Positions 905 to 25,277 of a stretch of DNA of 64,000 bases are shown here, piece after piece (the first letter of the stretch is position 1; the number at the start of each line of letters is the position of its first letter). The notes under the pieces are model-generated. The model did not search any database, had not been told where the DNA came from, and saw only the letters and a program-made list of their open reading frames with translations. This DNA is from Siphonodentalium dalli (lineage: Eukaryota > Mollusca > Scaphopoda > Gadilida > Siphonodentaliidae): contig CP136066.1 in NCBI GenBank assembly GCA_032622095.1, forward strand, positions 99,407,319-99,471,318, read 5' to 3'. The position numbers and the translations under genes were made by a program.

Positions 905-953
905 CTGAATTTGGAACTTGAGAACCAAGTTGTACAAGTATCATGCCTGGACA
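905..953 (-). CDS. YeeE/YedE-like transporter gene, exon 4 (CPG-motif exon)
   Basis: This 49-bp exon encodes CPGMILVQLGSQVPNS plus the first base of a Gly codon. It opens after a good acceptor (pyrimidine run, TTTCAG) and closes on TCAG|GTATGC. It begins in phase 0, matching the phase-0 end of exon 3, and the join gives GGCPG where YeeE/YedE proteins have their conserved (S/A)GxCPG loop. The cysteine of CPG is a family hallmark; in bacterial TsuA, conserved cysteines contact thiosulfate (recalled family knowledge). It ends in phase 1, so more exons must follow to the left. I see no convincing continuation in bases 1-890, so the second half of the protein probably lies outside the window. Such a short exon is supported mainly by the frame-perfect join and the motif. 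Confidence 0.82.
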
Positions 954-1039
954 CTGAAATGAAGAAAAGCAAAACAATAGTTAGTCTTGAACATTCTAAC
1001 AAATTAATAGCCAACAAATTACAAGATAGGCATCAGGGT

Positions 1040-1075
1040 CATTCTTTGAGGGTGGGGGTGGGGGTGGGGAGTGTG
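1040..1075 (+). repeat. GGGGGT-type microsatellite
   Basis: A short G-rich run of GTGGGG units, with a C-rich counterpart (CACCCACCCCTCCCC) about 100 bases downstream at 1160-1176. The two could pair. Confidence 0.6.
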
Positions 1076-1287
1076 GTTTTAAATTTCATGATTCTGGGAA
1101 AATTCATTTGCATCTCATGATTTATAATTTATTTTCTTACTGGCTACAAGTTTCCTAACACCCACCCCTCCCCACTGTGGTTGGGATAACTTCCAATTCA
1201 GTCTAAATTTTGACTGGAAATTGAGAAATTTCCTCTTACTTTACACTGAATATTAAATTAATTAAAATATAAATTATCAGACGAATC

Positions 1288-1631
1288 TTAAAGGGGTACT
1301 GTGCACTAAATCTGGCCATTTATAGGACCATCTACTTTTATACTCAAGAGAATATATACAATAAATGAATGAATTTGAGTCATGGATTAGTGCAAAATAC
1401 ACTCATGTGCTCAACATGGTAATTATAATGAAAATTAACTTATGGCTCCAGCCATAAACTCATTATCATTATAATTACCATGTTGTTTGCATTGTTCATA
1501 GAGCGCATGAGTGTATTTTACACTAATCCTTGGCTCAAATTCATTCATTTGTTGCATATATTCAGTTGAGTATACATGTAAAAGAAGATGGTCCCATAAA
1601 TTGAAGGATTTAGTGTACAGTACCCATTTAA
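1288..1631. mobile_element. TTAA-flanked foldback MITE
   Basis: Bounded by TTAA on both sides (1288-1291 and 1628-1631). The ends are AAAGGGGTACTGTGCACTAA and its complement TTAGTGTACAGTACCCATTT. The whole element is one long imperfect palindrome centred near 1450 (TATGGCTCCAGCCATA), with arms of about 150 bases. No coding capacity. TTAA duplication suggests mobilisation by a piggyBac-like transposase. Confidence 0.8.
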
Positions 1632-2235
1632 CCCATGCACCAAGTACATGTATATGTTTCCCATCCATGATCCCCCATGGTTCAAAATTTTTAAACCAAG
1701 AGCAGATTGATTCAAAATTTTGAGGATTACAACATATATTCTAATTTTGGTCTGAAATCAACATAGCTGGAACAATAATCGTTGAAAAATAAAACTATGA
1801 GAGCAATTACAACAAGTATATATTAGTCTGAGGTTTAACATGTTCAAAGATAATTGTCTTTCCGGGCATGATATTTCCAACTATTTGACAACACAAGAAC
1901 ACCCCCACCCATCAAGCCAATCTCCCCCATACCTCATATGAGTGCAGCGTGAATACCTATAAAATGTAACATAAATATTTTGTGATATAATATGGCAGAC
2001 CAAACCATAATAAGAACAAAGTATATTCCTTGTGTAAAATCAGTAGAGCAATCATGAAGTTCAATGATAATAACCCAAGGTTGTTATTTTTAAGACCATC
2101 CACTGCTTTGGTCTGATAACTGTGTTACATCTTATCTTAATTGTCCAATTAAGTAATAATATTTCATTCATATTCATGCGTTGCTGAATGTTTTGAAGTC
2201 AAATACCTACTCCAATATATCATAATTTTTTATCT

Positions 2236-2640
2236 TTAACCCTTTCATGACTGGGGCTTCTTGAAATTTTGTGAATACCCTAATCCAATGCATTCTCTTA
2301 TATACATGTATGCGAGTCTCCCATGGGAGCCTCGCAAAAATAAGCGGATACATTGGCCAAACAATATTTACCTTGACCATGTAAGCTACAGCATTCTTAT
2401 ATATATATATATGAGGCTCACTATGGCAGACTAGCATATATAAGAGAATGCACTGGCACATGATCTTTACTGCTGCACCAGCGCAGCTCCAGTCATGAAA
2501 TTGTCAACCCTTTCATGATGGGAGCTGTGATGGTGCAGCATTAAATATCATGGGAGACTTGCATATATAAGAAAATGCATTGGCACAGGTTTTTTTCCAC
2601 AAAATTTCAGGAAGCTCCAGTCATGATAGGGTTCAAGTTA
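2236..2640. mobile_element. Small TIR element with CCCTTTCATGA ends
   Basis: Left end TTAACCCTTTCATGACTGG and right end CCAGTCATGATAGGGTT are inverted copies. Next inside, CTTGAAATTTTGTG pairs with CACAAAATTTCAGG. It carries the palindromic motif ATGCATTCTCTTATATA in several orientations (2287, 2440, 2566), which also recurs at 7625 and in the composite palindrome at 30.1-30.6 kb. Confidence 0.6.
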
Positions 2641-3083
2641 TAGAATGTTCTATTTTTAATAATATAGGTTACAAAAAATGTGAAGGCATGTGTACACCGG
2701 TATATAGTGATATCACTATTATTTAGCAGACCTGTGAGAGTATACATACTTGGAATTTAGCATTGTCTTTACCATGAACAAATGATATTTTTCTTTCTAG
2801 GAATTAATTCATAATCCCATTTTAAATATAAACAACATACGAAAATCAACAAGAAAGAAGAGGGAAATTGGTGTATTTTGTGAAATAAATTTCTGAAAAC
2901 TTTTGGAGAATATTCAATTTATGGCTTTTCAAGGATGATTATGAAAAATTCAAATTGAGAAGTTCAGTAATACTAAAGTTATCATCTGGAAAAAAAAATG
3001 AATCGACGGAAAACAGACCGAAAAACAAAATAAGTTCTGTTTAAAAATGGGTATCTATTAGAATACAAGAAAATTGAGACTTC

Positions 3084-4406
3084 TTAACCCTTTGGCGAGT
3101 GAGTACGTCATATATGATGTAATATCTGTGGGTGAATATATTGTGCAAATAAACTGAGTATTATAGCAAATAAGTTACAAAAACAACATTATTATAAAGC
3201 ACAAATCAATGTAAATAACAAAATTTATCGCTGCAGAGCAGTCATTTTCCATCAGACAACCATCTCAGAATTGCCATACATGTAGTTAGTCATAAACAGA
3301 ACAGGGTGAGACCCAATCTGATAGCCTTTGAGCAAACATTCACCTTACCGATAGACCTAATTGTGTTATTTAAATTCCAACCAAAAGCGGCATTTAAAAT
3401 TTACAATGGTCTAATATACATAATATCTTCGAAAATGAAGTTGAAAGTGTCCATGTCATGTAGCTCAACTTGGGAATGAGTTTATATTTTGCTGAGCAAT
3501 GAATGGAATGGTAAAGGAAAGCCAAAAAGTTACATTAAAGGTCTTAGTATAGATGAAACTATTTTCATTTGAAACATTCACCAATAAATGTGGGTTGCAA
3601 GGTGAGCGGATAGATTCAAATTTGAAATCCATATGAAGTTTGGTGACGATTGGATGAGGGATGTGGCCTCTAGGGTGTACTGAAGGATTTAGTCAGGCAA
3701 AGAGTAAATTCAAAGATGGCCGCTGGCAGCCATGTTATTTAACAAATTTTGGGAATAATCAATTGCTCCAATATAGAGGACACCCCAAAGATCCATATGA
3801 AGTTTGGTGATGATCGGATGTGGCCTCCAGGGTGAGCTGAAGGATTTAGTCATGCAAAGTGTAAAATCTAAGATGGCTGCCAGCGGCCATGTTTTTTATC
3901 GAACATTGTTCGAATTTGATGACTACCATCTAGAGGTGATCCTAAACATGTCTGCAAATTTTCAGAACAATTCTCCAATAAATGCGGGCTGTGGGCTGAG
4001 CAGATGTATTCGAAATTGAAATACAAGATGGCTGCTGACGGCCATGTTTTTTAATGAATTTCGAGAAAAAATGCATGGCTCACATTGAGAGGTCACCCTA
4101 AAGATCCATAGAAGTTTGGTGATAGGATGAGGGATGTGGCATAAAGGGTGTGCCTAAGATAGTCAAAAATCCAAGATGGCTGCTGGCGGCCATGTTTTCT
4201 AACTGGATGACGGACACCAACCCATGGCAATAGCTCAAATTTTACACAGTAAAGTTGAGCTAAAAATCCCTTTAAAGACAATTTTATGATATTACCAATA
4301 CAGGGTAACATGGTATTATGATAAAGCTACCGTAAACAACAGAAATGTTGTTCTACCTGCCAAACGTACGATGACATGAATGTTGTTCTACCCACCAAAG
4401 GGTTAT
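3084..4406. mobile_element. Possible piggyBac-like non-autonomous element
   Basis: Left terminus TTAA followed by CCCTTTGGCGAGTGAGTACG; right terminus CCCACCAAAGGG followed by TTAT, a likely decayed TTAA. CCCTTTG next to TTAA is the classical piggyBac end. The interior is largely occupied by the first AAGATGGC array. No transposase frame. Confidence 0.45.
3443..4268 (+). repeat. AAGATGGC-array element, copy 1
   Basis: Begins with a form of GAAAGTGTC..CATGTAGCTCAACTTGGGA and ends with GAGCTAAAAAT. It contains four diverged units of about 150 bases. Each carries AAGATGGC(C/T)GC..GGC.GCCATG plus a 'CCATATGAAGTTTGGTGA' segment. Copies are at 4422-6128, 11972-12485 and 63807-64000. Confidence 0.7.
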
Positions 4407-4421
4407 AGCCCGATAGAGCTT

Positions 4422-6128
4422 GAATGAAAGTCTCAATGACACTGTAGCTCAACTTGGAGAAAGAATAATTTCATCTGTTACAGTCAATGGAGGAATTAGG
4501 AATGCAGAAAGTTGAAATACCTATGTAATACTAGATGTCAACATGAAGAGATACATAAATAAAATCCAAAATGGCCACTGGTAGCCATGTTTTCCAATGA
4601 AATTAGAAAACAATTTGATAGCTACAATCTAGTGGTCACCCACAAGATCAATATGAAGTTTAATGACAATTGGATGAGAGATGTGGTCTGTAGGTGTGTT
4701 AAAGGATTTATTCATGCAAAGAGTAAATTTCAAGATGGCTGCCGGTGGGCACGTGTATTTTAACGAAATTCAGAGTCATATGAAGCTTAGTGACAATCAG
4801 ACAAGGAATTTTGTCTGTAGGGTTTGCCAAACGATTTAGTCTTTCAAAGAGTAAAATCCAAGATGGCCACTGGCACAATATTTTCCAATGAAGTTCGTAA
4901 AACTTTGATGGCTCCCATTTAGTGGTCACCCAAAAGATCCAAATGAAGTTTGGTGATGACGAATGTGGTCTGTAGGTTGTGCCAAAGGATTTAGTCATGT
5001 AAAGAGTAAAATCCAAGATGACTGCCCATGGCAATGTTTTTCTTCGTAAATTGTTCAAATTCGATAGCTCCCATCTAGAGGTGATCCTAAATAAGCCTGT
5101 AAAATTTTCAAAACAATTCTCCAATAAATGGGGGCTGAAGGGGGTGACGGTAGATTCAAATTTTAAATTCAAGACGGCTGCTGGCAGCTATGTTTTTAAT
5201 GACTTTTGTAAAAAATTTATGGCTCCATCTAGAAGTCACACAAGATCCATTTGAAGTTTGCTGATGATCGGATGAGGGAGGTTGCCTGTAGGGTGTGCTG
5301 AAGGATTTACTCATACAAAGATTAAAATCCAAGATGGCTGCCAGCAGCCATGTTTTTCATCGAAAATTGTTCTAATTTGATAGCTCCCATCTAGAGGTGA
5401 TCCTAAACATGCCTGTAGAAATTTCAGAACAATTCTCCACTAAATGTGAGCTGTATGGGGTTCCGATAGATTAAAATTTGAAATCCAAGATGGCTGCTGG
5501 CCATTTCGGAAAAAATTGATGGCTTCCATCTAGAGGTCACCCTGAATATCCTTATGAAGTTTGGTGATGATCAGATGAGGGAGGTGTCCTGCAGGGCATG
5601 CCGAAGGATTTAGTCATACCAAGAACAAAATACAAGATGGCTGATGGCGGCCATTTTTTTTCAAAGTAATTTGGAAACATTTGATGGCTCCCATCTAGAG
5701 GTCACCCCAATGACCTGTATGAAGTTTGGTGATGATCGGAAGATGGATGTGGTCTGTAGGATGTGCCAAATACTTAGTAATGCAAAGAGTAAAATCCAAG
5801 ATGGCTGCTGGCGGCCATGTTTTGTGGCCGAATGATCCCAAAATGAATGGAATCAGACGAACAGTACTGCCTCTAGCCTGTGCTAATGGGTTGAATATTG
5901 AAATCAAGATGGTCACTGGTGGCCATGTTTTAACGCCAAATTACCCCAAAATTATTCGTTTCCATTTAAATGTCAACAGCCATGACAAATTGTATAATGA
6001 TCAGACCAAAGGTATGACATGTAGCCCATGCTAATGGAAATTATTGATGGACACACACTCGCATGGATGACAGATACCAACCCATGGCAATAGCTCAAAC
6101 TTTACAAATTTATGTTAAGCTAAAAATC
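4422..6128 (+). repeat. AAGATGGC-array element, copy 2 (about 10 units)
   Basis: Same start (GAATGAAAGTCTCAATGACA, CTCAACTTGG) and end (AGCTCAAACTTTACA...GCTAAAAAT) as copy 1. AAGATGGC or a one-base variant recurs near 4566, 4731, 4860, 5012, 5170, 5331, 5488, 5633, 5798 and 5904, a spacing of 105-165 bases. Each is followed by a near-complementary GGCCATG. Short frames across it are by-products of the repeat. Confidence 0.75.
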
Positions 6129-6640
6129 ATTGAACAATCATAAAGATTTGTTGAGTAATAAGCCTAGTTTGATCAGTCAATTTGGAGTGATCATGCAGTA
6201 ATCAATAAAAACCCAAATTTTTATTCCACAACTGTTGGGTGAGGCACATGGATGTATGTACTATATTCAATAAAATCACAGCCACTGCATACATATTTTA
6301 TATACCACAAGTTCAATACAAGAAGGAATTATTATTCGCATTGACATTGTTGCCAAGAGCAATGACAAAAGAACCGCTTCCAATGATTACATGTGTTACA
6401 TGTACATTATCGGTTTTCGACAAATATATATCACAATTACGTTTGTTATAGTATCAATAGACGCCAAGGTCAATGACTGGACTTACTGACACAATGGTAT
6501 ATGGAATATTAAATACAGAACATAACTTGCATCATAAAGTTATTCAAATCTTTATAGAACTCATTGCAGACGCCACATAGTTACATTTCACTTAAGCTCT
6601 GCTCTCGTGAGATATATCCTTGCGCAACTCATTCAATAAA
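6129..6640. other. YedE intron 3, no feature recognised
   Basis: AT-rich intron sequence between the repeat array and exon 3. I see no exon, TIR or tandem structure here. Confidence 0.5.
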
Positions 6641-6688
6641 AGATCATCGATTAAGATGCGCATTGTGTCCTAGCTAAATATTACTCAC

Positions 6689-6846
6689 CCCGCCACATAT
6701 GAACATCCCACTGCCCAGGATGAATCCCCCAACTGATGCAAGTTCAATAGTTCTTGTTTTGACACATGAACGAAATTCTGTTCTCACTTGTAAGAATATT
6801 CTTTGAGTGGACGGCAACATTGACATGATTGATAGAAACATCATTG
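6689..6846 (-). CDS. YeeE/YedE-like transporter gene, exon 3
   Basis: The 158-bp exon starts after ATTGCAG in phase 1 and ends at GGCGGG|GTGAGT in phase 0. It encodes about 52 residues: the end of a hydrophobic segment (SMMFLSIMSML), a polar loop with the VRTEFRSCVKTRT stretch, and a glycine-rich membrane segment ASVGGFILGSGMFICGG. That last stretch matches the G-G-x-(I/L)-L-G-x-G-M pattern that precedes CPG in YeeE/YedE (Sulf_transp) proteins, and exon 4 supplies the CPG. The open frame on the minus strand has no stop between the splice sites. Neighbouring introns are about 5.7 kb (to exon 4) and 9.8 kb (to exon 2), both filled with repeats. Whether the protein still transports a sulfur anion cannot be told from sequence. 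Confidence 0.88.
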
Positions 6847-7458
6847 CTGCAATAGTTGAAAAAAGTACTTAAGTTAGTCATCATCACCACCGTGGATAGC
6901 ACAAGTAATATGCAAGTCATAGATTAATAGAAATTTGTGGCTATTAACCAATCCTAAATATTTTCTATGGCGAAAGGCGATGCTGTAGAAAAAGTTGTAG
7001 GTGCCATTCCCCCGTGCCAATATAGAATTTCATGCAATTCTAAAACAATGTCATTGAAAAAATGTTTAGTTTCAAGGGCTGAATAACCCTTTCTTTACTA
7101 CTTACTCATTGAAGATTAGTTCCCTGAATTAGAACAGGAAGATGAGGCCTTGCCAAGTATCTGTTTTGAACCTCTTTAGCATAAATTGGCAAGTTTCATC
7201 TATAGATAACCACAGCAGAACAAAATATGCATTAAAACAACCCTGTTAATTAGCAGGAATTTGTCTTGGCTAAAACATTACATACATGTAGGCCTGGAAC
7301 TTAGCCTTGGCTAAAAATCTAAGGATCCGCACAGAGAAATGCTCTACTTATATTACATACACAAATTTATGTATAGACTTCAGTTTATAATTTAGTGGCA
7401 GACTCTGTTTGGGTCTGGTTTAACATTTTCTATACAAAATGGATTCTCCCAGTCAGTT

Positions 7459-8735
7459 AACGAGAGGACGATCACGATCGGCAGATGTTAACCCATCCCT
7501 TGGCGATCAAAATTTAATATGATCGGATAAATGAGAGTTTTGGTGTTGAATTATAGAGTATACTGTTATGTACTATTATAGACAAATGTACATAACACAA
7601 ATTATCGGAATTTATGGGTCACTGGCATTTATATAAGAGAATGCTATGGTACAGGATCTGTAATGCTAAACTGCCACAGCCAGCAAGCCCATGGGTTAAA
7701 TGTGTAGGTGTGACCTGGACATTGAATACTTGGATTAAGAGAGTCCAATTTAAGTTTACAATAATAATGTGTCCTAGTATACAGATAAGCAACCTCACCA
7801 CTGACCCATTAATATCAATTATATAGCAGAGCTGTCAAAATATCACAGGAATTGTTTATGTTGAACACTGACCTCTCTATTAAACCAATAACAATTATAA
7901 TGATATCAGACCATCTGAAGATATAACTCTGCAGCACAGATGTCCAAGTCTAATGTCATGTGATGTTTATTGTTGAATCTTTATTTTAAATTAGATACCA
8001 TAGGCTTCTTTATCAGATTATTTGCACATTGGCATAAGAGACATCAGAAAATAATATAGCCTTATCAATAGCTAAGTAGTCCAAAGGCAATTGGTGAATT
8101 GATTTTAATGTTGCTCCAAACAGATTTACCAGTACATAACACAAGATTTTGGACCAATTTTATCAAATTTGGTGTGGTGATTCGGGGTACCCTTGGCAGA
8201 GTTATAATGGTGTGAGTTTTGCAAATTATTTTAACTTAAAAAAAAAAATGGTTTTTAATTATTTTAAAAAATTAAAGGGACACATTGGAAATCTTTTTGT
8301 CAACTGTTATCATAATCATTAATATCTAAATGAAAACAAATGACAATGTCAATGACATTTTTTTTATTATTATTATAAAAGTTAAAAATATTTATTTTTT
8401 TTAAATTGAACTTTTTTTGTTCAAATTTTTTTCTCGAAAAAGGGTCATAACTCCTTGAAAATTAATCGGATCAAACCCATATTCGAACTCGATCTGTATT
8501 TTGGGCTGTGAAACTCACACACCAAATTTGGTTCCAATCAGATAAAAATTGTTTGAGTTATGGCAGAATGCGTGAATTCTAAGTTGAAAAAGGGCCATAA
8601 CTCTGTAACAAAATCTCGGATCAAACCCAAATTCGAACTAGATCTATATTTTGGGCTGAGAAACCCATATACAAAATTTTGTTTCGATCGGATAAAAAAT
8701 GTTTGAGTTATCGCATTACTCGTAAAGTGTCTACG

Positions 8736-8770
<35 letters not shown>

Positions 8771-8890
8771 GGACGAACGACGAGTGGTCAATCCGGGCAA
8801 CGACACTATGTTTACCATACTATGGTATGGGTAAACATAACGAGAGGCCGATCACGATCGGCAGATGTTTAACCCATACCTTGGCGATAG
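7459..8890. repeat. Dispersed repeats with a CCGATCACGATCGG palindrome
   Basis: ACGAGAGG(A/C)CGATCACGAT followed by CGGCAGATGTT and CCTTGGCGAT occurs at about 7459-7505 and again at 8838-8886. Between them, 8440-8720 holds two diverged units of about 130-150 bases ('GGATCAAACCCA(T/A)ATTCGAACT', 'TTTGAGTTAT'), then a (GACA)n tract at 8735-8770 and a CCATACTATGGTATGG palindrome at 8814-8829. Confidence 0.65.
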
Positions 8891-8987
8891 CGACTAGCCA
8901 TAACTGATAATTTGTCAAAGATATGATCACAGGAATTAATCCATATATCAGTACCCAACTTGAAATCAAAAGCTCAAATAATTTGTC

Positions 8988-9404
8988 TTAAAGGGGTACT
9001 GTACCCAAGATGTTGTTGTTGGTTTCCATAATCCCCGAGTCGGAGAATAAGGTAACAACTTTTCCATTTTTTGAAAGTCTGTTGAGTACGAAGTATTGTT
9101 ACGGATGGCAAATTTACCGGAATGCAAAAATACAAATTGTCGTTGTCGAGTAATTTTTGTACAGTTTTCAACCAAATGAATCAAATAAACATTATATTAT
9201 ATGCTTAGCAGTCCCATATACTCATTTAAGTTAGTGTATGGTCACTAGTCAATGAGTGGCTTGGGTTTTCTCCCCGTATAAGCATAATGTTTCAAACGAT
9301 CGTGTGTGCAATTGTTTTATTAATCCAGTATCCCTCAATTATAATTTGATTACGTTTTGTACACGGAAATTCCATGTGTCTATGGAAACCTTGGAAAGGG
9401 TTAA
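8988..9404 (-). mobile_element. TTAA MITE, family B, copy 1
   Basis: Starts TTAAAGGGGTACTGTACCCA. For about 390 bases it matches the reverse complement of the copy at 16821-17412 (for example CCGAGTCGGAGAA, GACTAGTGACC and ACACGATCG motifs). It ends at GGAAAGGG-TTAA. Internally shortened and non-coding. Confidence 0.7.
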
Positions 9405-9889
9405 TTATTTTTGAAGCAAATTTTAATGGAATTAAGAAGACACTTAAATAGGTGAGGGGGGCCCTTATCTCACCCTGTAATGAAATTTCAAGAATAGGAA
9501 AAACACCAGTCTTGTGCTGCCATTAATCAATTTGACAGTTAGAATAAACAAACAGCCAGCCACCAGTGTTGTTTATCTTGCTTGACCCACCAGAGCTCTG
9601 TATCATGTCATCACTCATTTCATAACAGATTTCACTTGGAATGACAACATCTATAAAAATCCTCTCATATACTCTGGATGTTGGATGATCACATGGTAAT
9701 TTATTGATATCATTATATTACATGAAACTATTGCAATAAAATCTTCATATTTTCAAAACAGGATATCACACCTAATTAATCGTATAAAACTAAAATAAAT
9801 GAAAGTGTCAATTTTTTTTTATTATTTTGTTATTATTTTTTTTATTGTTATTAAAGTTCAAACAAAATTTAATATTTGTATATGCTAAA

Positions 9890-10143
9890 TTTAGCAATAT
9901 TCGGACTCGATCTGTATTGTGGGCTGTGAAACTCGCATACCAAATTTGGTTCCAATCAGATAAAAAATGTTTGAGTTATGGCAGAATGCGTGAATTCTAA
10001 GTTGAAAAAGGGCCATAACTCTGTAACAAAAACTCGGATCAAACCCAAATTCGATCTGTATTTTGGGCTGAGAAACCCATATACAAAATTTTGTTTCGAT
10101 CGGATAGAAAATGTTTGAGTTATCGCATTACTCGTAAAGTGTC

Positions 10144-10174
<31 letters not shown>

Positions 10175-10245
10175 AGACGGACGAACGACGAGTGGTCAAT
10201 CCAGGCAATGACACTATGTTTACCATACTATGGTATGGGTAAACA
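9890..10245 (+). repeat. Second copy of the GACA-tract repeat
   Basis: Near duplicate of 8440-8835. It holds two 'TTTGGGCTG(T/A)GAAAC' units, the GTAAAGTGTCTAC block, a GACA/GACG microsatellite at 10146-10190 and the terminal CCATACTATGGTATGG palindrome. Confidence 0.7.
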
Positions 10246-10249
10246 TAAA

Positions 10250-11200
10250 AAGTGTACGTCAGAATGGTCTATTATTGATTTGGAGAGATGTTAAGGTGAT
10301 TAAAGAAGAAATCAAATATATAAGAGTGCAGAAGGAGCCCTATTTATTGAGGGAAATGTTTTGCTAATAAGTTTGTTGAACTTAATTATTATCTGAACAT
10401 TTCCTATGTGATAACCACTCAACAATGATGGTTTTATGGAAATGAACTATTTTAAATAGTTTATTTCCAATATACAATAGTTTTAATGTTATCTAGCTGG
10501 TTCTTGTTACTAATACAAATTATTCAATCCTTGCTATCATCTTGTTTGCAGACTGGCCACTACCCATAAATATTAAATGCAACAACCACAGAAATTTGGT
10601 TCAATTTTGCACAAAATATTGACAGCTTTTGAAATTTGTCTCAGCTAAAAAATAGCTTTTAAAATCTAGTTTTGCCTTGGAATTTGCCTCAGGCTCTTAG
10701 CTCAGCCAATATATCATGTTAATTAACATGGCTGTATGGGTAGATGTACAATATACTACATGATATTAATCTCTGATTAATATATTGTAAGAATAAATCC
10801 ATAGATTCTGATGATGTCTGTTGTTGTGTGGTCTTTTCAGGTTTATTTTTAGGCAATGACAAGGGTCGAAAATGGCACCATTCCCATGGGCAATAGCCAG
10901 GTTTATTTCCAATTTATGACCCCGAAATTCCCAATTCAAAGAAAGTCGCTTGTTTTCTTAACAAAGATAGGATTTCTCATTCATTTTAAGGTGATCATTC
11001 AAGTCCTATCGCCCCATTTGCATAATGAGGAATAAAAATCTAATGAATAAATTAAATGGTTTCATTAAACTGAGTTTCACAATGAAAATGCTTGTTTCTA
11101 CATCTTCCACATTCCAAATTTAATGCCTCATGTTGTAAATTTCCCCACTGTAAAGGGCCTGGGACCCTCTCCCAAAATATGTAGAAAAATCCCTGCAGTT
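10250..11200. other. Intron 2, no gene seen
   Basis: AT-rich. The motif ATCTGAACATTTCCTA at about 10393 recurs inside the short hairpin at 61930-61980. Nothing else supported. Confidence 0.4.
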
Positions 11201-14886: not shown

Positions 14887-15462
14887 TTAAAGATATGGAT
14901 GGCATTCCCGGTGGGTATATGTTGCTGTTAAAATAGTCACATCAATTAAAACTGACATAAACAGAAAGAATATTAAAATATAGACATACCTTGTTCTTAT
15001 ACCGATCATATATATCGTGTAAATAGTATGTTATTGTCAAGTTAATATGGTGTGTCAGTAAACAAAAGCCATGTTATGTTACAGTACAGTATGTAAAGAG
15101 TATATGATAAGCAAATCACCGGGGAGACTCCACTAGTGGAATTTTGGTTAAAATTTCCACCAAGTTGTTTACAAGATACTGGCTAAAGCTCGCTAATCCC
15201 CACCACTCAAGATTTCAGTTTTGAATGGTTCACTGTGAATTACTCTCCTTAAAAAATGTTGGGTGTTTTGCTTATCGCGAATTATGTACGTGCTGTATAT
15301 AAACAAACGCTCTGCTCACACAAAATGCGTTTTGTGGAAATATCGCATTCATATTATCATTATACTATACTATTACTACCGGTATATTCTTGAGGAAATT
15401 CATATTTTGGAAACTGTTATATATAAATTATAACCTACAACAAACGCCATCTGTGCCTTTAA
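14887..15462 (-). mobile_element. TTAA MITE, family D, copy 1
   Basis: TTAA at 14887-14890 and 15459-15462. It matches the reverse complement of copy 2 (AACAGAAAGAATATTAAAAT, GTAAATAGTATGTTATTGTC). Confidence 0.65.
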
Positions 15463-15800
15463 TGATAAGGCACACTATCGTTCTATATATATGGTGGCTA
15501 TATTTATACTAGTAGAATTTCTGTGTTGACATTCCATTCCAGTGACCAAGAGTACTGACACAAGCAGTGATGTTACTACAGTTTACATGTTACACTTTTA
15601 CTGATATTGTGTCAGAAAACATCAGTGACAGTGCAATTTTGACAGACTATCCAACCTCATTCACCAACGATGTCCACCTTGTGTTGGGGCAATATTATGG
15701 CAATTTTGTTACTCTCTCCACACACCTTGTTGGTCTCTATTTCAGAATAGTGTTATAATTTCAGAATTGTATTTGGCATTATTTCATATATTTTACATCA

Positions 15801-16276
15801 TTAAATGCACGGGCGGCGTTCGTTGCAGAAATATTCATATTTGTTCAAATCGCCATCAACAGAAGGAATATTAAAATATATATAGTTTTGTTCATATGCC
15901 AAACATAATCAGCGCGTAAATAGTATATTGTAGTCAAGACGTACGATGGTGTACGTAAACAAGAGCCTGCTCGTGTTACAGAAATTGTGCTTCTGTTTAC
16001 ACAACACAGCGCAATTCTATTGGTTAATCACACAAAAATGACATAAACGCTCTTTATTATTTCCATATCAGGAAAACAGTAACAAATAACGCTCTTTATG
16101 TTTACCATATCCAGATCTAAACAAAAGGGAAAAAAATAGACAATAACATACTGCTTTAAATATGGTATAAGAACAACGTCTGTCTATATTTTACTATTCT
16201 TTCTGTTTATGGCGGTTTTTATCGGAAGTGAATATTTTAACAGCATACCCACTGCCAATGCCGCCCGTATCTTTAA
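15801..16276 (+). mobile_element. TTAA MITE, family D, copy 2
   Basis: TTAA on both sides. Ends ATGCACGGGCGGCGTTCG and GCCGCCCGTATCT. It shares AAACGCTCTTTAT, CTGTTTATGGCGGTTTTT and ACCCACTGCCAA with the copies at 19450 and 46092. Confidence 0.75.
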
Positions 16277-16691
16277 ACACATACGGGTATTCCAGTTTTA
16301 TTTAGAGAACATTACATGTATGTTCCCACCAAAATCCCATGTGTGACAAAGATATGCATTTGTGTCATTACTCTGGGAGACAGCTTGGGAATGCATACAT
16401 CAAATTTTGTATATGTCCACAACACTGGTAGGGCAGGGTAGACATCTTTGTGATGTGAACAGACCACTCATATAGTCACGACCCCAGGTGGTATAACAAT
16501 TTTTTCCCGAAGAAGGGACAAAAAACTGGCTTATGAGCATGGTCTCCATAGTTATTCATAATTTGCCCATGGGAGCCCAAAACCAGTTATTAGCAAGTGA
16601 CTACACTGGAGTAATTAATGTGTTAGTCAATATCTGTGTCATAAGGCAAAATTTTCAGCAGTAACTAGTGTACTCTTAATTCTATACCTAC

Positions 16692-16775
16692 ATGAAGCCA
16701 TGGCAGTTACAAACATCTTCAGCATGATGAATTTCTGGAATAACATCCCTGAACGGATATTTCCGGGCTCGAAGA
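16692..16775 (-). CDS. YeeE/YedE-like transporter gene, exon 2
   Basis: This 84-bp exon lies between ATGTTACAG| and TCAT|GTAGGT and is in phase 1 at both ends. Joined to exon 1 it reads ..LEKGR-VFEPGNIRSGM.. and continues KFIMLKMFVTAMAS. The block 'E-K-x-R-V-x-x-P-x-x-I-R-x-x-M' followed by 'F-x-M-L-K-x-F' is what I know as the signature of the first repeat of YeeE/YedE membrane proteins. The donor uses GTAGGT rather than GTAAGT; using the GT four bases further on (TGTAG|GTATAG) would shift the frame into exon 3, so the site chosen is the only one that keeps the protein open. A TTAA MITE begins about 45 bases from the acceptor (16825). Confidence 0.88.
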
Positions 16776-16820
16776 CTGTAACATAAAATTATCAATACAA
16801 TACATGTATGGTAATGGTAG

Positions 16821-17412
16821 TTAAAGGGGTACTGTACGCCATTTCCAATAAATTTCCGATGATAACAACGATCTATTATCGATAATATATAGAAACATAA
16901 GTAATTTGAGTCGAAGATGTATTCTGTAAACGCTCAGGTTAATAGGCTATCTTAAACTTTAATAATTTAAAAGTTAATAATTTAATATAAATTGAATTTA
17001 TGGCTGGAGCCATAAAATGGCGTAAATTAAAATACGAATTTCCGTGTACCAGACGTAATCAAATTATAATTGAGGGATACTGGATTAGTAAACCCATTGC
17101 ACACACGATCAGTTGAAACATTATGCTGATACGGGGAGAAAACACAAGCCACTCACTGACTAGTGACGATAAAGGAGTATATGGGACTAGTATGCATATA
17201 TAATATAACTTTTATTTGATACATTTGGTTGAAAAATGTACAAAAATTACTCGACAACGACAATTTGTATTTTTGCATTCCGGTAAATTTGTCATCCGTA
17301 ACACTACTTCGTACTCAACAGACTTTCAAATAATGGAAAATTTGTTACCTTGTTCTCCGACTCGAAGACTATAGAAACCAACAACAACATTTGGCGTACA
17401 GTATCCCTTTAA
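16821..17412 (+). mobile_element. TTAA MITE, family B, copy 2
   Basis: TTAAAGGGGTACTGTACGCC at left, GGCGTACAGTATCCCTTTAA at right: TIRs of 16+ bases with TTAA duplication. Non-coding. It lies about 45 bases upstream, in transcript sense, of YedE exon 2. Confidence 0.85.
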
Positions 17413-17577
17413 TAATAACCAAAATACACAGATAATTCATAATATAGTTTCATATTCTTTAGTAACAAATAATGAAAGAAAGCAATATATTGACCAATTT
17501 AACTTAAAGATTTGGGTGAAATTCCCAAAAATTGTTATTCAAATTATAAGCAGAATTATGCTGAAATCTATATAAAT

Positions 17578-17792
17578 AAAAGAGTAGGGTTTGTCTACCT
17601 GTTCGTGATCTTTCTTCAAGACCCCTGGAGCGATTACAACAAATTTGGTATGTTGACTCGGGGTACAAAGGCAGATGTTATAACTGTGTTAGTTTTTCAA
17701 AATGTTGATTTAAAAAAAAAAAATATTAAAAAAAAATGTAAAAAAAAAAATGTAAAAAAAAAAATTTGAATTGAGCCAAATATATATATTTT
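17578..17792 (+). repeat. Dispersed repeat interrupted by the piggyBac-like element
   Basis: Contains AAGACCCCTGGAGCGATT and TTGACTCGGGGTACA, as at 8180 and 11830, then several A-runs. The family continues at 20960-21055 after the inserted element. Confidence 0.5.
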
Positions 17793-18393
17793 TTAAACTC
17801 TTAGCTGCTAAATGACGTTATGACGTCGTGTGCTGGGCTGTTGACATTATTGCCATTTTCCAATGGGAAACTATAACGGGAATACCACAAGAACTATAAA
17901 ACTGACTCGGTTGAAAGGCTATTATCGTTCACCATCGTGGAACATCATACACTGTTAGAAACTTGGAGATACAGTTATTCCAATGCACCAATCTCTGGGT
18001 TCCAGTTATGTATAATGGGCCAATGGCCTACTTCTAGTGTGCTGAAGTAGGTCCGTAGGTACCTACGGACCATATAGCACACGGCGTGCACTTTTACGTC
18101 CGTAATAGTTAGGCCTAAAAAAAAAATACCTTTGTTTCCCTTAACGGAGCTGAAAAATATAGGTGCGGGTGGGCGGGATATTTTTTTTGATTTTTTTTTT
18201 TTTGAAAATCGCCCGAAAGTTCTCACTTTCCCATGTATATATACATGTCAGGTGTGATTTCAATGCTGGAAGCTTCATTATGATATTGGAAGGAGATCAA
18301 CAAGACACAAGACATAAAATAGAATAGCATAGTATTTATTTGTATTTAAAATCACAAAGTACAATAAAAAGTAAATATTTAATACCAATTCAA

Positions 18394-18618
18394 TCAAAAA
18401 TATCCTATACCAACATATGCTACCATTTTCACTTTAAAAGTGTTTAAAATATCGCCAACAAAACACTCATTTTCAACGTTAAACGTTTCCTTTGAATCCA
18501 AGTCCAAACTACTGCATTTAACGACAACGTTGTCCGTAAAACTCATATGGTGTTCTTGAAACACGTGTAAAAACTTCTTAGCATGTGAAACTACGGTAAA
18601 TTTGTTTACCGCGTCCAT
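18394..18618 (-). CDS. Small ORF in the piggyBac-like element (74 aa)
   Basis: A 74-residue frame starting MDAVNKFTVVSHAKKFLHVF and ending VAYVGIGYF-stop. An AATAAA signal on the same strand lies about 55 bases past the stop, in CAAATAAATAC near 18336-18341. It sits inside the piggyBac-like element, just left of the nested hAT insertion, and its upstream part may have been cut off by that insertion. The FxVxxHA..F opening faintly recalls CGGBP1/BED-type DNA-binding proteins linked to transposons, but the zinc-binding residues are not present, so I assign no function. It could be a remnant C-terminal exon or chance. Confidence 0.35.
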   Translation of the reverse strand: MDAVNKFTVVSHAKKFLHVFQEHHMSFTDNVVVKCSSLDLDSKETFNVENECFVGDILNTFKVKMVAYVGIGYF

Positions 18619-18715
18619 GAGAGAACTTTTAGATACTTTAGCCCTAACACACTGCTGCTAACCATAATTCGTGACGCCATGACATAGGTGAATATTCCTG
18701 TTTTGATGGAAGTTT

Positions 18716-20655
18716 TAGTGATGAGCCGATTGTCAAATAGAGCTATGTGCCGATTATTTGAGATCACAATCGGCCGATTCAGGTGCCGATTCCTATTATT
18801 GTAATAATTATACCAGAATATGTTATATGTGTTATATAATACTTAGAATTAGAAGCAAGCAACAACCGTAGTAATATGCCAGTACAAAGTATATATACAT
18901 GAGTATACGTTTGGGTAAGTATAGGTAGGTATGGGCGGACTTGTGATCGAATACAGGCACATGTCCTGCAGAGGCTGTGGTACGGGGCCTCGGTGTATTT
19001 ATGTAATGTATTGTATCGACGATGCAATGCATTAACTTTCGGACTTTCCCATGTATTCCAGGCTATTCCACAACAAATAGTTTGAAAGTTTGATGTAGCC
19101 ACCACGTGCATGACGACATATCCACGGCCCGTTATTGATAACAATTCATCAAACGGCATTTTTCTTTGACCCCAATTCAAAGACATCACATCAAAGCAAA
19201 TGAGCCGACTGAACTAGTTGCAAGTTACACCATGTTCACGTCAATTTCGCAGACACGATTTGATTGTCGATTTTGGCATGGTCATCAAAATAATCATTGG
19301 TGGTGACCTATACGTGACGTCACATGAGGCTGACTGGATGGAATGACATTGTCTTCGACTATTTAAAGTTAATCATTAATGGAAAGTTGTGTTGGGTGAA
19401 AGACTTTCAAAAGATTATTACAGATAGTAAAATTAATAAATAAATTTCTTTAAAGGCACGTGAGGCCTTAGTTGTCGAAAATATTCATATTTGTTCCAAT
19501 CACCGTAAACAAAAAACAGTAAAACGCATACAGTTTCGTTCATATATACCACGACCATCGCGTAAACAGCATGTTATCATAAAGACCTAATATATTTTAC
19601 CTAAGCAAGAGCCTGATTGTGTTACAGAAGACAGCACAATGCTACTGACTAATCACAAACAAATGGCATAAACGCTCTTTATTAGTTCCAGATCAGGAAT
19701 TCACCCACAAAGAACGCTCTTTATGTTTACCATCATAATATAAACAAGCATCAGAAAAGTAACTTGTTATGCTTTTGTTTACATATCAATGGTCAACCAT
19801 ATGACAATAACATACTGTTTATGCGATATTTCTTATTTTTATACGGACAAAGTCTGTCTACATTTTGATGTTCTTTCCGTTTGTGGCAGTTTTTGACGGT
19901 TGGAAATATTTTCACAGGATACCCACCGCCAAGGCCAACCGTACCTTTAATATCTGACTATTAATGCTTGTACAGTTTTTATTCCTGCGTCCTGACAACT
20001 GATCAGTACACATGTTATAATATGCTCAATTTAATTGAACAAGCAGTGAAGTCAGCTGCGCAATTAAATGTCACGTGACATGCACTTTCGGTTTCTACAG
20101 TTTATCCCTGTTTTAAGCTGTGTGTACTATATAGATAGATTTGTTGTGCTGCGTATGCATACATTTTGATTTTTGATAGTCTGAAATACATAAATAAAAA
20201 TGTCTACATGTTGATAACGAACAATAAAGTTACGTATCGGCCTACATGAGTCCCATGAGATGTAATTTGTGTACATCATCATATAATTTATGATTACGCG
20301 CAATCACGGCGTCATCATCGAAGCCTGGCTCTAACCCAAAGTGTCACGTGCTTCCCTGCGATCCCCACTGTAATATATTGTTCAAACATAGACCCAGGTA
20401 CGGCCGGTGTATTGAAGAGGAGATGGCTGTATATCAAGTTTGTGTTTGGTAAATCACTTTCCCCATGTTTACTGGTCATTTATTCAACAAAACATCGTCA
20501 TATTTAAAACAGTTTATTGAAGAAAAACAAGCACCTGATTTCTATTTAGACAATCGGAAATGCCGATGTTGAAACCCGACTCCCCGAGTACCGTACCGAT
20601 TGTCATCCGATGGGCCACAATCGGCCGGTTCCGATTGTCGGCTCATCATGCACTA
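18716..20655. mobile_element. hAT-like element nested in the piggyBac-like element
   Basis: Left end TAGTGATGAGCCGATTGTC; right end, reverse complement, TAGTGCATGATGAGCCGACA. Both are followed by CGATTGT/CGGCCGATT repeats (18725-18785 and 20565-20640). The flanks GAAGTTTT and GAAGATTT could be an 8-base duplication with one mismatch. It contains a family D MITE (19450-19950). No transposase frame. Confidence 0.65.
19450..19950 (+). mobile_element. TTAA MITE, family D, copy 3
   Basis: TTAA both sides; begins AAGGCACGTGAGGCCTTAGT, ends AAGGCCAACCGTACCTT. Almost identical to the copy at 46092-46590, which points to recent activity. Innermost layer of a three-level nest. Confidence 0.85.
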
Positions 20656-21656
20656 GAAGATTTAAACGAAAACAATGTATTTTTTATTTTCCGTAGGCGC
20701 CGCCATTTTACGAAATGCGTCCGGACGTCGAGTCATTAGAAACGGGACTATTATAAAGCGACGAACTGAGACAAACAGCGTCGGCAGCTATTTTCTTTTA
20801 TTTTCGAAAAAATTAAAATAAAAAAATTGTTTTGGTGCGGAAGGTTTTAATAGGTGCGGGCGGGTTAGGGGAAACAAAGGTATTTTTTTTTAGGCCTTAC
20901 GGACGTCATAGCAGCGAAGAGGTTAATTAAATTAGTTTTTTTTTAAATAAAAATGTTCAAAAGATAAAAATATGTGCAAAGCACACAAAGGGGAATGTTT
21001 CAGTGTTGTGCAGGAAACCAGGCGCATGTTTCAGCTATAGCTATTCCTAAATATTGCCTGTTTAATAGTGGTACACATAATCTCAAAATAAGGGTCAGAG
21101 ACAGCTGTGCATGCAGAGACGGGTTGGGGTGAACGGAAGAGCAAATTAAGGCTCCAGCATAGGGAACTGAGAAGAGCGATTGTGTTGAGCCCATCCACCA
21201 CCACTACCACTAATTCACAGTGAACTCAGTATTCTGTATGCTTCGGTACTGAATGTACATCATCATACATGTATGCATTAATTATAGTATGACTACTCAG
21301 TGAGTTCTCTGTGAACTGGTCAATTGAATTACCCCTCCCCCCGACCGAGCCCCTGTTATTACTATATCAGGGTATACCCTTATATACCTTAATATATATA
21401 GTAATACTCTCGGGATCCAAATAAACATACAGGTACTCATATTAAATTTAAAGTAAAAATTCCCCCTGTATATATACTGCTAATTTGGGTCCCTATAATG
21501 TTTTTTATTTCAATCGAAATGACCACTTTTGATATAAAAACCACTTCAATGTGAGATAAAATGATAATTAAGAATCAAACAAAGGCTAACACATCTTCTC
21601 TTGGTTCATATATAAGGCTAAACAAAGACTCACCTCTGTATTTAATATTGAGAACC

Positions 21657-21691
21657 TCCCCCCCCCCCGGGGGGAGGGGGGGGGGGGGGGG
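21657..21691. repeat. Poly(C)/poly(G) palindrome
   Basis: A run of about ten C passes straight into GGGGGGAGGG and a long G-run, giving a C-G foldback. Confidence 0.8.
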
Positions 21692-21705
21692 TGGTGGTAT
21701 ATGAT

Positions 21706-21886
21706 TCGATCAAGCACAGGAGCTTGGAACTTTATCAATAACTACCTTCATTAGGCTAATTAGCAATTTATTGACACAGTCTTATGGCAAAACATTGCTA
21801 ATTAGCCTAATTAAAGCAGTTTAATATCAATATCATGTTATTGATCAAGTTCCAAGCTCCTGTGATTCAAGTTGTGCTTTGATCTT
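21706..21886. repeat. Foldback palindrome 1
   Basis: CACAGGAGCTTGGAACTT and AAGTTCCAAGCTCCTGTG are the outer arms; TTAGGCTAATTAGCAAT and ATTGCTAATTAGCCTAA are inner arms. A MITE-like structure of about 180 bases. Confidence 0.8.
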
Positions 21887-21952
21887 TGTCACTGTTTGTT
21901 GCCACAACCCCTGACTTGGCGTGACATAGACTCGGAGTGTAATATATACATA

Positions 21953-22113
21953 TTATCACAACAGTGTGTTGATCCGTGTCGTTGTATCACGTCGAGTTGA
22001 GGTGGGCAGATTGCTGGATCAAACGAGTTGCCGCAGGCAGCGAGTTTGATTCGACAATCTGCCCACCTCAACGAGACGTGATGCGCTGACACCGATCAAC
22101 TCACTGCTGTGAT
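21953..22113. repeat. Foldback palindrome 2
   Basis: GTTGAGGTGGGCAGATTG and CAATCTGCCCACCTCAAC pair near the centre; GTTGATCCGTGTC pairs imperfectly with GACACCGATCAAC further out, and TATCACA with TGTGATA at the edges. It follows palindrome 1 within 70 bases. Confidence 0.8.
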
Positions 22114-22343
22114 AAAAGGTTTATTATATGACACCCAGTTTACAATAATAACCATTTAATTATAGATTTGTTTCAGTTCAGCGTTATGGTTTTCTTATTT
22201 TCAACGGATAAATAGTCCGTCGTCGTTAATCGGCACATCTCGGCAATTTCCGTAGGAGTGTGATCTGATTTGATCCGGGGAAATCTCACTCAGTGTGATC
22301 CGACGATTTGGATTATAGATCGTCAAACAATAGTGGTATTTAG

Positions 22344-25011
22344 TAGTGATGCGGACCGGACCAGACCACCTTGGCCAAGGCGGTCCAGTCCGGTCCGGTC
22401 CAGGGCATTCCGGTCCGGTACACATGCCTGGACCGGTCCAAAACGGTCCGGTCCACATACAATAGGCTATACATGAATATGTTAATGAAATCTCTGTTTT
22501 CTCAAAGTTTTTACTCTGTATAGTACAAACTATAAGGTTACTGAGTTCAGTGCATTGCAATGAGTCCATACATGTATATGTTAAAACGTACATTGTTTGC
22601 CGATTGTATGCATCATTGTCTGTCTCTGGTGGGATATATTTGGAGCGATGCACGATAATAGTATTTCTAGTAATGCGAACATGCACTAATTAAATGTATT
22701 GGACAGATATACATGTATAGCTAGGGCCAGAATGTGTTATAACCAATCTAACATGGCACTCAACTGATCGTATACATGATTCCTATCATACTTATTTTCA
22801 TTAAATTGAAATTTAAACGAAATAACTATACTGATGACAATTAATATACAAATGTGTACTAGCTAATATGACTACTACATTAATATTGGAGTCTGGGAGA
22901 TTGTGATGGCTGATTGTATAAGTCTTGACAATTACAGTTATATACCTAAGTTAGTTACTACTATTGGATTAAGTGACTGTCTTGTGTATGTACTATGTAA
23001 TGTGGTTTGCATGTTTCTTCGACAATTATAACTGTGAAAAACAATAGAATACTCGATTCGATATCCATCCAAATTGATTAGTTGATGCCATGTTAATTAC
23101 ACTGTTTATGACAAATATTTCCATACTCATTCAGTTGCATGTTTGTCGCATTGATAGGGTGCTACATGTACATATTGTTGGCCAGTGTATGATAGTAGTT
23201 ATTTAAAACAATTTAGAACGAAACAAGCAAATTTTATATTTTGAAAATGTTTTCAGAATGCTTAATAACATTTTAACATTTGGTTTACAGTAACACATTT
23301 GAAAATGTTTTCAGAATGATTGACATATTAACATATGGTTTATTCTAACAAATTTGAACATCTATACATTGTTTTCGTGGCATCAAACGTTTAATAGATG
23401 GGTGATTTCACGGGAAGTGTAGCATGAAGGAATTGGACACATATCTCCCTTAAATTCATGTTCAGTGTATGACCAACCTACCATTCATTTTTGATCATAT
23501 AAAGGTATATTTATGTGACCGGCGCAGCAAATTTTAGCTGCATATGATTATTTTTTGCAATTTTATGACCAGAAATGTGCATTTTTTGGCCATTTTCTCT
23601 GTGCCAAACAGGAAATGGTCTCAATAATAAGGTGATTATAAGAAAATATATAGTACAAAGGAAACAAGTTTCATACAGTAATTATAATCTAAGACATTCT
23701 GTTCTTATTAGTGAAAATTTCATGTAAAAATGTAAAAAATATGTAATTTTATGTCAATTTTTTTTTATTTTGGAGACATTCCGTTAAAAAAATAAAAAAA
23801 CACCAAAATCAAATCAACAACAGCCAGTATTGAAGAAAACACCATTAAATATGTCACATATGGTGTATTTTCAACAATAAGGATATGATATCTAATAGAG
23901 ATGTGCTATTATTTCTGTGATTAAAAATTAGTGATTTTTTTAGTTTTTTGATTAGTGATGACGAAAATTCCGTTAAAAAATGTCCTTTCCTGAACATGGC
24001 TTTTTCTGAAATTTTCTCATTACCAGCCACCTTAACAAGGAAAGTAAATTTTAATAATGGCATTAGATGGCATGACAGACATAACTGTCAGAAAGTTTAG
24101 TATGTAACACACTAGTAATGTAAAAAAGTTGATTTATCATTGTTTAAAAAAATGTCCTTTCCTGAACGATTTTTGACAATATGCATTGAGGTCATATATC
24201 GGAGGAAAAACACCTGTAATCACCAGTGCAATATATATATATCACTTGGGAACACATATCAAATTTCTCAAAAACCTTTCAAGTATTTTTTATAATTCGG
24301 TGGATTTTTAATTTGTAGAAGGCACACAAAAGTAGTGTTTTTGGGTTGTTTTTAACACTTTATTCAAATTTGTCATAAGTAACAGCAAGGCTTTTGACAA
24401 AATATGATGACTTCCAAACACTGAAAGTGGAATAACTTTGGAACCGAATAAAAAATTTCAATTCTGTAAAAACTGTTATATTTTAGAAGCTCTCCTCTGC
24501 AGCTTGAGACATATTGTGGTAAATGAGAACTCATCTGAAATTTTCAGTTGAATTCCCTGTTTACTGCTGCTGTTTTTTCATCTTTAATTTAAAGATATTA
24601 TAGTGATGCCATATCTATGGTATGATGTAACTTTTTAAACAATGGTTCCCATGCTATAAATTTTGTGGAGATGTGTTCCCTGTATTCCAGCTACAAAATA
24701 AAAACAAAACGAAAGTGATTGAAGAAACTTCATTTTTCAGTGCATTTGGCACTTTTCGTGCTACACTTCCCGTGAAGTCACCCAGATATTAACCACTTGA
24801 ATGCGTCAATACATTGTTGTTAATTGATATGACGGCAATTACGCAATAATATTCGCGATAATTTATTATAACTGAAGTAAAATAATGGACCGGACCGGAG
24901 AGTACCGGACCGGCGGCAAAAAGGGGTCCGGTCCGGTCCAGTGACACCCGGTCCGGACCGGACCGCGGTCCAGGACCGGACCGGTCCAAAGCAGTCCGGT
25001 CCGCGTCGCTA
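22344..25011. mobile_element. hAT-type element with GGTCCGG-rich ends
   Basis: The ends are TAGTGATGCGGACCGGACCA and, reverse complement of the right end, TAGCGACGCGGACCGGACTG. The flanking octamer GTATTTAG is identical on both sides (22336-22343 and 25012-25019), the hAT signature. Each end carries 100-130 bases dense in GGTCCGG/CCGGACC (22350-22455 and 24890-25008). The body is AT-rich with no transposase frame and hosts another element at 23400-24783. It sits in YedE intron 1, 44 bases past the exon-1 donor. Confidence 0.92.
23400..24783. mobile_element. TIR element nested in the GGTCCGG hAT
   Basis: Left GGGTGATTTCACGGGAAGTG and right CACTTCCCGTGAAGTCACCC are inverted repeats of about 24 bases with one mismatch, extending into GTAGCA/TGCTAC. 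AGAT flanks both sides, a possible 4-base duplication. No coding frame; the interior is AT-rich with A- and T-runs. Confidence 0.75.
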
Positions 25012-25063
25012 GTATTTAGGGAAACATAGTCATAGTTATATAATATATACCATGCACACTCAC

Positions 25064-25277
25064 CTCTTCCCTTTTCCAAAGCAACACCAAAACAGAAACC
25101 AGCAACGCCACATACACAAATCTTTATCATTTTATTCATAACTGGAGCTTCCCGATTTTCTTTTGGAAATTCATTCTTCAGAAATCGTGACATTTCCTCG
25201 CTGCTGTTCCCCATAGAAGATTTAGCTCGTTTAAATGTTTCTCCGTATTTAGTGTCACCCATAGTTGAGGCAGACAT
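25064..25277 (-). CDS. YeeE/YedE-like transporter gene, exon 1 (start exon)
   Basis: First coding exon of a membrane protein of the YeeE/YedE (Sulf_transp) family, whose characterised bacterial members take up thiosulfate across the inner membrane. The exon encodes 71 residues: a polar N-terminus (MSASTMGDTKYGETF...) and then a first membrane segment, KICVCGVAGFCFGVALEKGR (about residues 52-71). It closes on a consensus donor, GAAGAG|GTGAGT, in phase 1. The ATG at 25277 is the first in frame; a second ATG five codons later is the alternative start. The frame stays open upstream to about 25505 without an ATG, so that part is probably 5' UTR. A TATA-like stretch is near 25481-25490 on this strand. 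A 2.7-kb hAT element sits 44 bases beyond the donor. The four visible exons give about 169 residues, roughly half of the usual family length. Confidence 0.88.

Follow-up and report, generated by a model that had tools for sequence, protein, structure and literature searches.

An intron-bearing Sulf_transp gene of the mollusc Siphonodentalium dalli and its bacterial gene-pair relatives

Two kinds of described transporter are closest to the gene treated here, the bacterial TsuA/YeeE proteins and the PmpB/PmpA (YedE2/YedE1) gene pairs. In StYeeE thiosulfate is relayed by three cysteines, and StYeeE alone transports thiosulfate in vitro; in E. coli cells, uptake through YeeE cannot do without YeeD (PMC11073785). 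PmpB corresponds to the N-half and PmpA to the C-half of full-length YeeE, in which Cys91 and Cys293 are indispensable (PMC11582611). The YedE1E2 system imports zero-valent sulfur in one direction and requires both conserved cysteines, and fused YedE3 proteins gave no speed-up of this import (PMC10812762). YeeE-like proteins are mentioned in eukaryotes (PMC11073785) and in fungi (PMC10812762), so that their occurrence in a eukaryote is not itself new. The gene reported here begins in a stretch of 64,000 nucleotides, called the window, from the scaphopod Siphonodentalium dalli (contig CP136066.1, here C6; C6:99407319-99471318, in an assembly of 2.23 Gb and nine contigs), and its product belongs to the same Pfam family, Sulf_transp (PF04143). 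No paper on an animal YeeE was found by title or start of abstract in the open-licence literature. Sequence databases may hold animal members that have not been named.

A ten-exon gene on contig C6

The gene lies on the minus strand of C6 and is an intact ten-exon gene for a 406-residue Sulf_transp protein, with a coding sequence of 1221 bases including the stop codon (TGA). Exons 1 to 4 are in the window and exons 5 to 10 sit 2.0-17.2 kb past the window start on the same contig. The window part had been described in an initial annotation made from the letters of the window, and the four exons, their splice sites and their phases read as described there, with exit from exon 4 in phase 1; retrieval of the adjoining sequence, which the annotation had proposed, yielded the six further exons that complete the frame, all junctions being GT-AG and in phase. 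The exons are as follows.

Exon 1: window 25064..25277, minus strand; ATG, 46-residue extension, first hydrophobic segment and LEKGR
Exon 2: window 16692..16775, minus strand; VFEPGNIRSGMLFQKFIMLKMFVTAMAS, incoming phase 1
Exon 3: window 6689..6846, minus strand; runs to GGFILGSGMFICGG, incoming phase 1
Exon 4: window 905..953, minus strand; Cys153 (equivalent of StYeeE Cys91), CPGMILVQLGSQVPNS, incoming phase 0, leaving phase 1
Exon 5: C6:99405282-99405180, minus strand; outside the window
Exon 6: C6:99403105-99402991, minus strand; outside the window
Exon 7: C6:99401513-99401399, minus strand; outside the window
Exon 8: C6:99398122-99398010, minus strand; outside the window
Exon 9: C6:99393395-99393244, minus strand; outside the window
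Exon 10: C6:99390283-99390166, minus strand; outside the window

The nine introns are 1477-9845 bases long. The donors of the window exons are GTGAGT, GTAGGT, GTGAGT and GTATGC, with AG acceptors, and the incoming phases of exons 1-4 are 0, 1, 1 and 0; the exon 6 donor, GTTTGT, is weak. In-frame stops precede the first ATG, and an AG two bases before this ATG is a potential acceptor, so that an additional untranslated exon may be present upstream of exon 1. Intron 6 (phase 0, after residue 241) sits in the linker between the two halves of the protein, a position that one of nine introns could occupy by chance.

Family membership, which the initial annotation had proposed to check by a profile search of the joined exons, was significant for the 168 amino acids of the four window exons (34.7 bits, E 1.9e-8) and much more so for the full protein, which at 127.4 bits (E 1.1e-36) exceeds the Pfam gathering cut-off of 27 bits for PF04143 along the whole model, residues 69-394 aligning with profile positions 1-309 of 310. 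Profiles of the N-half and the C-half, built from the animal and bacterial rows, match residues 2-115 (E 8.2e-14) and 240-325 (E 1.4e-5) of 6leo, respectively. Hydropathy of the protein gives separated peaks, from which the transmembrane count is not clear (the YeeE fold has nine helices). A PF04143 search of the animal genome returned one match, 14 kb past the window start and on the same strand; the same search was positive in 6 of 14 control genomes. Exons of Wnt genes gave 41 matches in this genome and none in any of the 14 prokaryote controls, which identifies the host as an animal, and the claim of an intron-bearing animal Sulf_transp gene is borne out by these matches together with the nine introns and the 127.4-bit score. 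Bacterial contamination was ruled out because the nine introns lie on a 233-Mb contig, reverse-transcriptase open reading frames (ORFs) are found nearby, and the gene has intron-bearing paralogues.

Bacterial gene pairs related to the animal protein

A tblastn search of 72,556 plasmid records (E 1e-3) returned five partial matches with 36-51% identity over 55-98 residues, and the three inspected are half-length YeeE genes adjoining a DUF6691 gene. A contig scan with the animal protein alone gave 0 confirmed of 181 pattern matches. When a small alignment (A2) was used in a second scan, at least 409 of at least 598 pattern matches were confirmed, the best 80 being retained; the best among the matches listed were from Elioraea tepidiphila (43%) and a Betaproteobacteria metagenome-assembled genome (MAG) (41%), each relative consisting of two adjacent genes with the C-half first (loci L043 and L044). 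No viral relative was confirmed among 35 pattern matches. At E 1e-10, matches were found in 13 of 337 sampled genomes of the class of Elioraea (both halves in 12), in 19 of 395 of its order (both halves in 17), in 2 of 369 genomes from the class to which the Betaproteobacteria MAG belongs, and in 19 of 345 of the phylum of a Desulfobulbaceae MAG (genome G004), these larger sets being samples from still larger groups; the orders of two other matched genomes were positive in 1 of 11 and 1 of 4 genomes, and a third order comprised its own centre genome alone.

The nearest bacterial relatives found are adjacent gene pairs, mostly alphaproteobacterial, and not the TsuA/YeeE thiosulfate transporters. 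Scores of the animal protein are 168-191 bits with nine of the pairs and 143 bits with a tenth, with identities to close pairs of 29-38% in the N-halves and 36-50% in the C-halves, as compared with 22 bits against E. coli TsuA and 23.5 bits against StYeeE. The NCBIfam TsuA models gave 33.4 bits (cut-off 400) and 19.4 bits (cut-off 645), and neither cut-off was reached. The close kinship with TsuA-type thiosulfate transporters that the initial annotation implied is not supported, either by these scores or by residues, since the animal protein has other residues in place of Cys22 and of R98 and E101, which contact TsuB.

The order of the two halves distinguishes the animal chain, a single spliced ORF with the N-half followed by the C-half, from the bacterial genes, in which the order is the reverse. 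A profile scan of 102 loci detected both halves in 89, automatically labelled as C-then-N (85), N-then-C (two) and single-ORF N-C (two). The two N-then-C labels (L059, L109) belong to long ORFs open upstream in which the domain positions put C first, so the corrected count is C-then-N in 87 of 89 loci, including three repeats of other loci. In the genome samples the C-half is upstream of the N-half in 12/12 genomes of the class of Elioraea and 17/17 of its order, 28 different genomes altogether. In three pairs of the clade described below, the N-half genes cover PF04143 from position 1 to 153-155 and the C-half genes from 168-172 to 308-310; DUF6691 scores 18-23 bits in these N-half genes, below its cut-off of 27, and is the only match of the N-half gene of L031, a pair that is like the tested YedE1E2 in its length and in having an MBL-fold hydrolase gene next to it.

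Phylogenetic analysis was carried out on 85 rows (75 bacterial loci, the animal protein and nine TsuA-type rows), leaving out of the 89 loci the repeats L125, L131 and L133 and eleven with a segment shorter than 110 residues. The animal protein groups with ten pairs (L043, L044, L123, L124, L126-L130 and L134) with support of 100/100, and with nine of them, L134 being outside, at 99/91. The nine TsuA-type proteins cluster separately, and so, in another group, do the fused loci L045 and L141. In separate trees of each half, made from 36 pairs (L060-L122 thinned to six and the two fused loci excluded), the N-half of the animal protein joins the nine pairs at 97/95, rising to 100/99 on adding L134, and the C-half joins all ten at 98/97. 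In a 46-row tree of a chosen subset that included L031 the animal protein stays in the clade (100/99). The bacterial origin suggested by the initial annotation is thus supported, the animal protein falling in a clade of bacterial gene pairs both as a joined sequence and by each half separately. An origin from TsuA-type proteins is not favoured by the trees: forcing the animal protein to group with them costs 31.4 log units, with a borderline p of 0.043 in the approximately unbiased (AU) test. The bacterial loci L045 and L141, each a single ORF in N-C order, fall among gene pairs instead of TsuA types; fusion in the N-C order therefore seems to have arisen more than once.

In an alignment to StYeeE, Cys153 corresponds to Cys91, Cys366 to Cys293 and Arg79 to R28, a further TsuB contact, and the replaced residues are Cys22 (Phe73), R98 (Gln160) and E101 (Ser163). 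Equivalents of Cys153 and Cys366 are present in 10/10 clade members and in 83 of the 84 non-animal rows, and both are invariant in the ten sequences of alignment A1. Position 73 is F in nine and C in one of the ten clade members and C in eight of nine TsuA types, position 160 is Q in 10/10 clade members, and position 79, Arg in the animal, is R in none of the ten bacterial members. The loss of Cys22 and R98 is therefore mostly a trait of the clade and Arg79 is not. The member with a cysteine at the Cys22 position is L130 (genome G197), whose N-half ORF reads GRVCEGG; the other nine pairs have phenylalanine. In L043 the C-half gene is overlapped by a minus-strand ORF whose end, by eye, resembles that of an ArsR-type repressor.

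Paralogues on contig C4 and surroundings of the gene

When the genome was searched exon by exon with E values up to 10 admitted, 39 matches came up. Ten of them are the exons on C6, 27 fall into three sets on contig C4, and two weak ones on C2 and C5 were taken as chance. The three C4 copies are incomplete or damaged. Copy A (C4 263.708-263.745 Mb) has exons 2-10 with their splice sites retained, exon 1 not being found in this search. Exon 5 of this copy carries a one-base insertion in an A-rich stretch, which a sequencing error there could possibly explain. Copy B (C4 263.816-263.927 Mb) has all ten exons, of which exon 1 is frame-shifted by insertions and deletions and exon 5 contains a stop. 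In copy C (C4 254.164-254.235 Mb) only exons 1-4 are present, the third and fourth interrupted by stops, and no further exon was found in the 19 kb past it. Counterparts of exon 1 are at C4:263816261 and C4:254163576, those of exons 2 and 3 in the three copies have identities of 77/84 and 140-143/158, and the same exon boundaries (AG, GT) are retained in the located exons.

Comparison of C6 with copy A gave a synonymous divergence (dS) of 0.23, a non-synonymous divergence (dN) of 0.077 and a dN/dS of 0.335 (327 codons), and with copy B 0.204, 0.079 and 0.389, respectively (393 codons). For copy A the excess of synonymous over non-synonymous change per site has a Fisher p of 1.7e-7 (site counts rounded). 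Identity to C6 is 0.90 over exons 2-9 of copies A and B, as compared with 0.81-0.82 for the 100-base intron flanks and a baseline of 0.74 for 60 random pairs of 100-mers aligned by the same method. The dN/dS ratios and the excess of exon over flank identity indicate that the protein has been constrained for at least part of its history.

Extra stretches resembling exon 3 precede the proper exon 3 in each C4 copy (loci L007, L017 and L027).

C4:263712866-263713021, exon-3-like stretch in copy A
C4:263877217-263877372, exon-3-like stretch in copy B
C4:254228358-254228513, exon-3-like stretch in copy C
C4:254228617-254228772, second exon-3-like stretch in copy C

All four end in GMFIC followed by TCATTTCATTTG, without a GT donor, and for this reason mutually exclusive exons were rejected and the stretches are read as relics of local exon duplication.

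Elsewhere in the window, ten ORFs were tried against Pfam and two matched reverse transcriptase, both probably remnants of long interspersed elements; the other eight had no Pfam match at E 0.01.

Window 55675-56649, plus strand: RVT_1 ORF, 85.9 bits
Window 37865-38221, minus strand: RVT_1 ORF, 28.3 bits, just below the cut-off of 29.6
Window 54387-54725 and 52974-53408, both minus strand: by eye, exons resembling C-type-lectin-like or other cysteine-bearing secreted proteins, with no Pfam match at E 0.01

Proposed origin and function, and comparison with known transporters

The clade of gene pairs leads us to favour somewhat, judging from sequence, an origin in which a bacterial pair of the PmpB/PmpA kind was acquired, fused in swapped order and supplied with introns, giving a transporter of reduced sulfur. 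As the trees suggest, the animal gene would descend from a bacterial two-gene transporter (PmpB/PmpA, that is YedE2/YedE1) that entered a eukaryotic line, where the two genes would have become one chain, N-half then C-half, with introns gained after entry; the B-A order would result if a tandem duplicate A-B-A-B lost the genes at its two ends. In fungi the fused members have the A-B order. The two halves may form a single bundle like that of YeeE, where reduced sulfur species would be received first by Cys366 and then by Cys153 and relayed inward without a TsuB partner, and zero-valent sulfur (polysulfide or persulfide), judged likelier than thiosulfate, could be delivered to a small thiol. 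The protein probably carries reduced sulfur, which may be zero-valent, from one side of a membrane to the other, and a moderate case can be made that the chain would work like the gene pair rather than like TsuA; the membrane, the direction and the physiological role, for example in sulfide handling, are guesses. More tentatively, and with less than even confidence, the animal lineage may have rebuilt a bacterial importer of zero-valent sulfur as one intron-bearing chain with its halves swapped, converging on the TsuA layout and moving persulfide or polysulfide sulfur. We know of no named animal carrier for membrane transport of persulfide or polysulfide.

Several observations weigh against this proposal. 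L031, which represents the tested YedE1E2 type, falls in the 46-row tree in a different branch from the animal clade, which makes it weak to carry the YedE1E2 substrate over by homology. The animal branch is long (1.3-2.7 across the trees), so that its exact position inside the clade is unsure, and the AU result against a TsuA grouping is borderline and concerns a group chosen after seeing the tree. Copy C gives a dN/dS of 0.67 against C6 (dS 0.136, dN 0.091; 163 codons), and a steady sulfur-gene context was not seen by eye beside the clade pairs at ten loci. A search for the TusA/TsuB domain (PF01206) found 0 matches in the animal genome and was positive in 11 of 14 controls; this result favours the proposal but is no proof of absence, as a TusA domain of 70 positions split by introns could escape the search. 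A missing TsuB would in any case not exclude thiosulfate, as StYeeE alone moves it (PMC11073785).

This last point bears on the reading, in line with the suggestion of the initial annotation that the product may move thiosulfate, of a thiosulfate transporter working like bacterial TsuA/YeeE. Such a role fits the shared Pfam family, the weak matches to StYeeE (23.5 bits) and the TsuA models (33.4 and 19.4 bits), the retained equivalents of Cys91 and Cys293 and the Arg79 at R28 that no bacterial clade member has. Thiosulfate is also a usual end product of animal sulfide oxidation. We nevertheless regard it as unlikely, given scores of 143-191 bits for the ten pairs and 22 bits for E. coli TsuA, the replacements by Phe73, Gln160 and Ser163, and the failure to find a TusA/TsuB domain in the animal genome when YeeD is essential in E. 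coli cells (PMC11073785). It is doubtful, too, that the fusion predates receipt by the animal lineage, having occurred in a bacterium or another eukaryote: the family does include fused N-C proteins outside the clade (L045, L141 and the TsuA types) and the searches covered samples of genomes, but no fused member occurs among the ten clade pairs or the 28 genomes with both halves, and L045 and L141 group with other pairs.

Descent of an old eukaryotic gene from the alphaproteobacterial ancestor of mitochondria, with retention in few lineages and no lateral transfer, would agree with the class of Elioraea supplying most tree neighbours, with the nine introns and with the mention of YeeE-like proteins in eukaryotes (PMC11073785). 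It is made improbable by the sparseness of the pair in that class (both halves in 12/337 sampled genomes) and by its presence in the Betaproteobacteria MAG and the Desulfobulbaceae MAG genome. A non-functional gene in decay, as the state of its three C4 relatives might suggest, is very improbable: the C6 frame runs uninterrupted through 406 codons and has every splice site, dN/dS is 0.34-0.39 against copies A and B, and the cysteine motifs are intact. Returning to the acquired and fused pair, if the protein is functional the animal would possess a dedicated carrier of reduced sulfur derived from bacteria, and the membrane step of sulfide or persulfide handling would become directly testable; if the conversion of a two-gene transporter to a single chain in swapped order is true, it would be an independent parallel to the TsuA layout.

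The PmpB/PmpA (YedE2/YedE1) systems, composed of a DUF6691 protein and a half-length YeeE, resemble the animal protein in that each of its halves matches one partner and holds one conserved cysteine (PMC11582611, PMC10812762). The animal protein differs from them in being a single chain with the halves swapped, and in an N-half that lacks a DUF6691 match and has an extra C-terminal hydrophobic segment common to its bacterial clade. TsuA/YeeE (YedE3; PDB 6LEO, 6LEP, 8J4C and 8K1R) has the same single N-C chain with the Cys91 and Cys293 equivalents, but is distant in sequence and tree; Cys22, R98 and E101 are not retained in the animal, and the PF01206 search of its genome gave no TsuB domain match. 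The pairs of Elioraea tepidiphila (L043, 191 bits) and the Betaproteobacteria MAG (L044, 175 bits) are the closest relatives found and have LEK(S/G)RVFEP, CPG, WSP and GCTSGHG in common with the animal protein, from which they differ as two genes, C-half first, without introns and without the 46-residue N-terminal extension.

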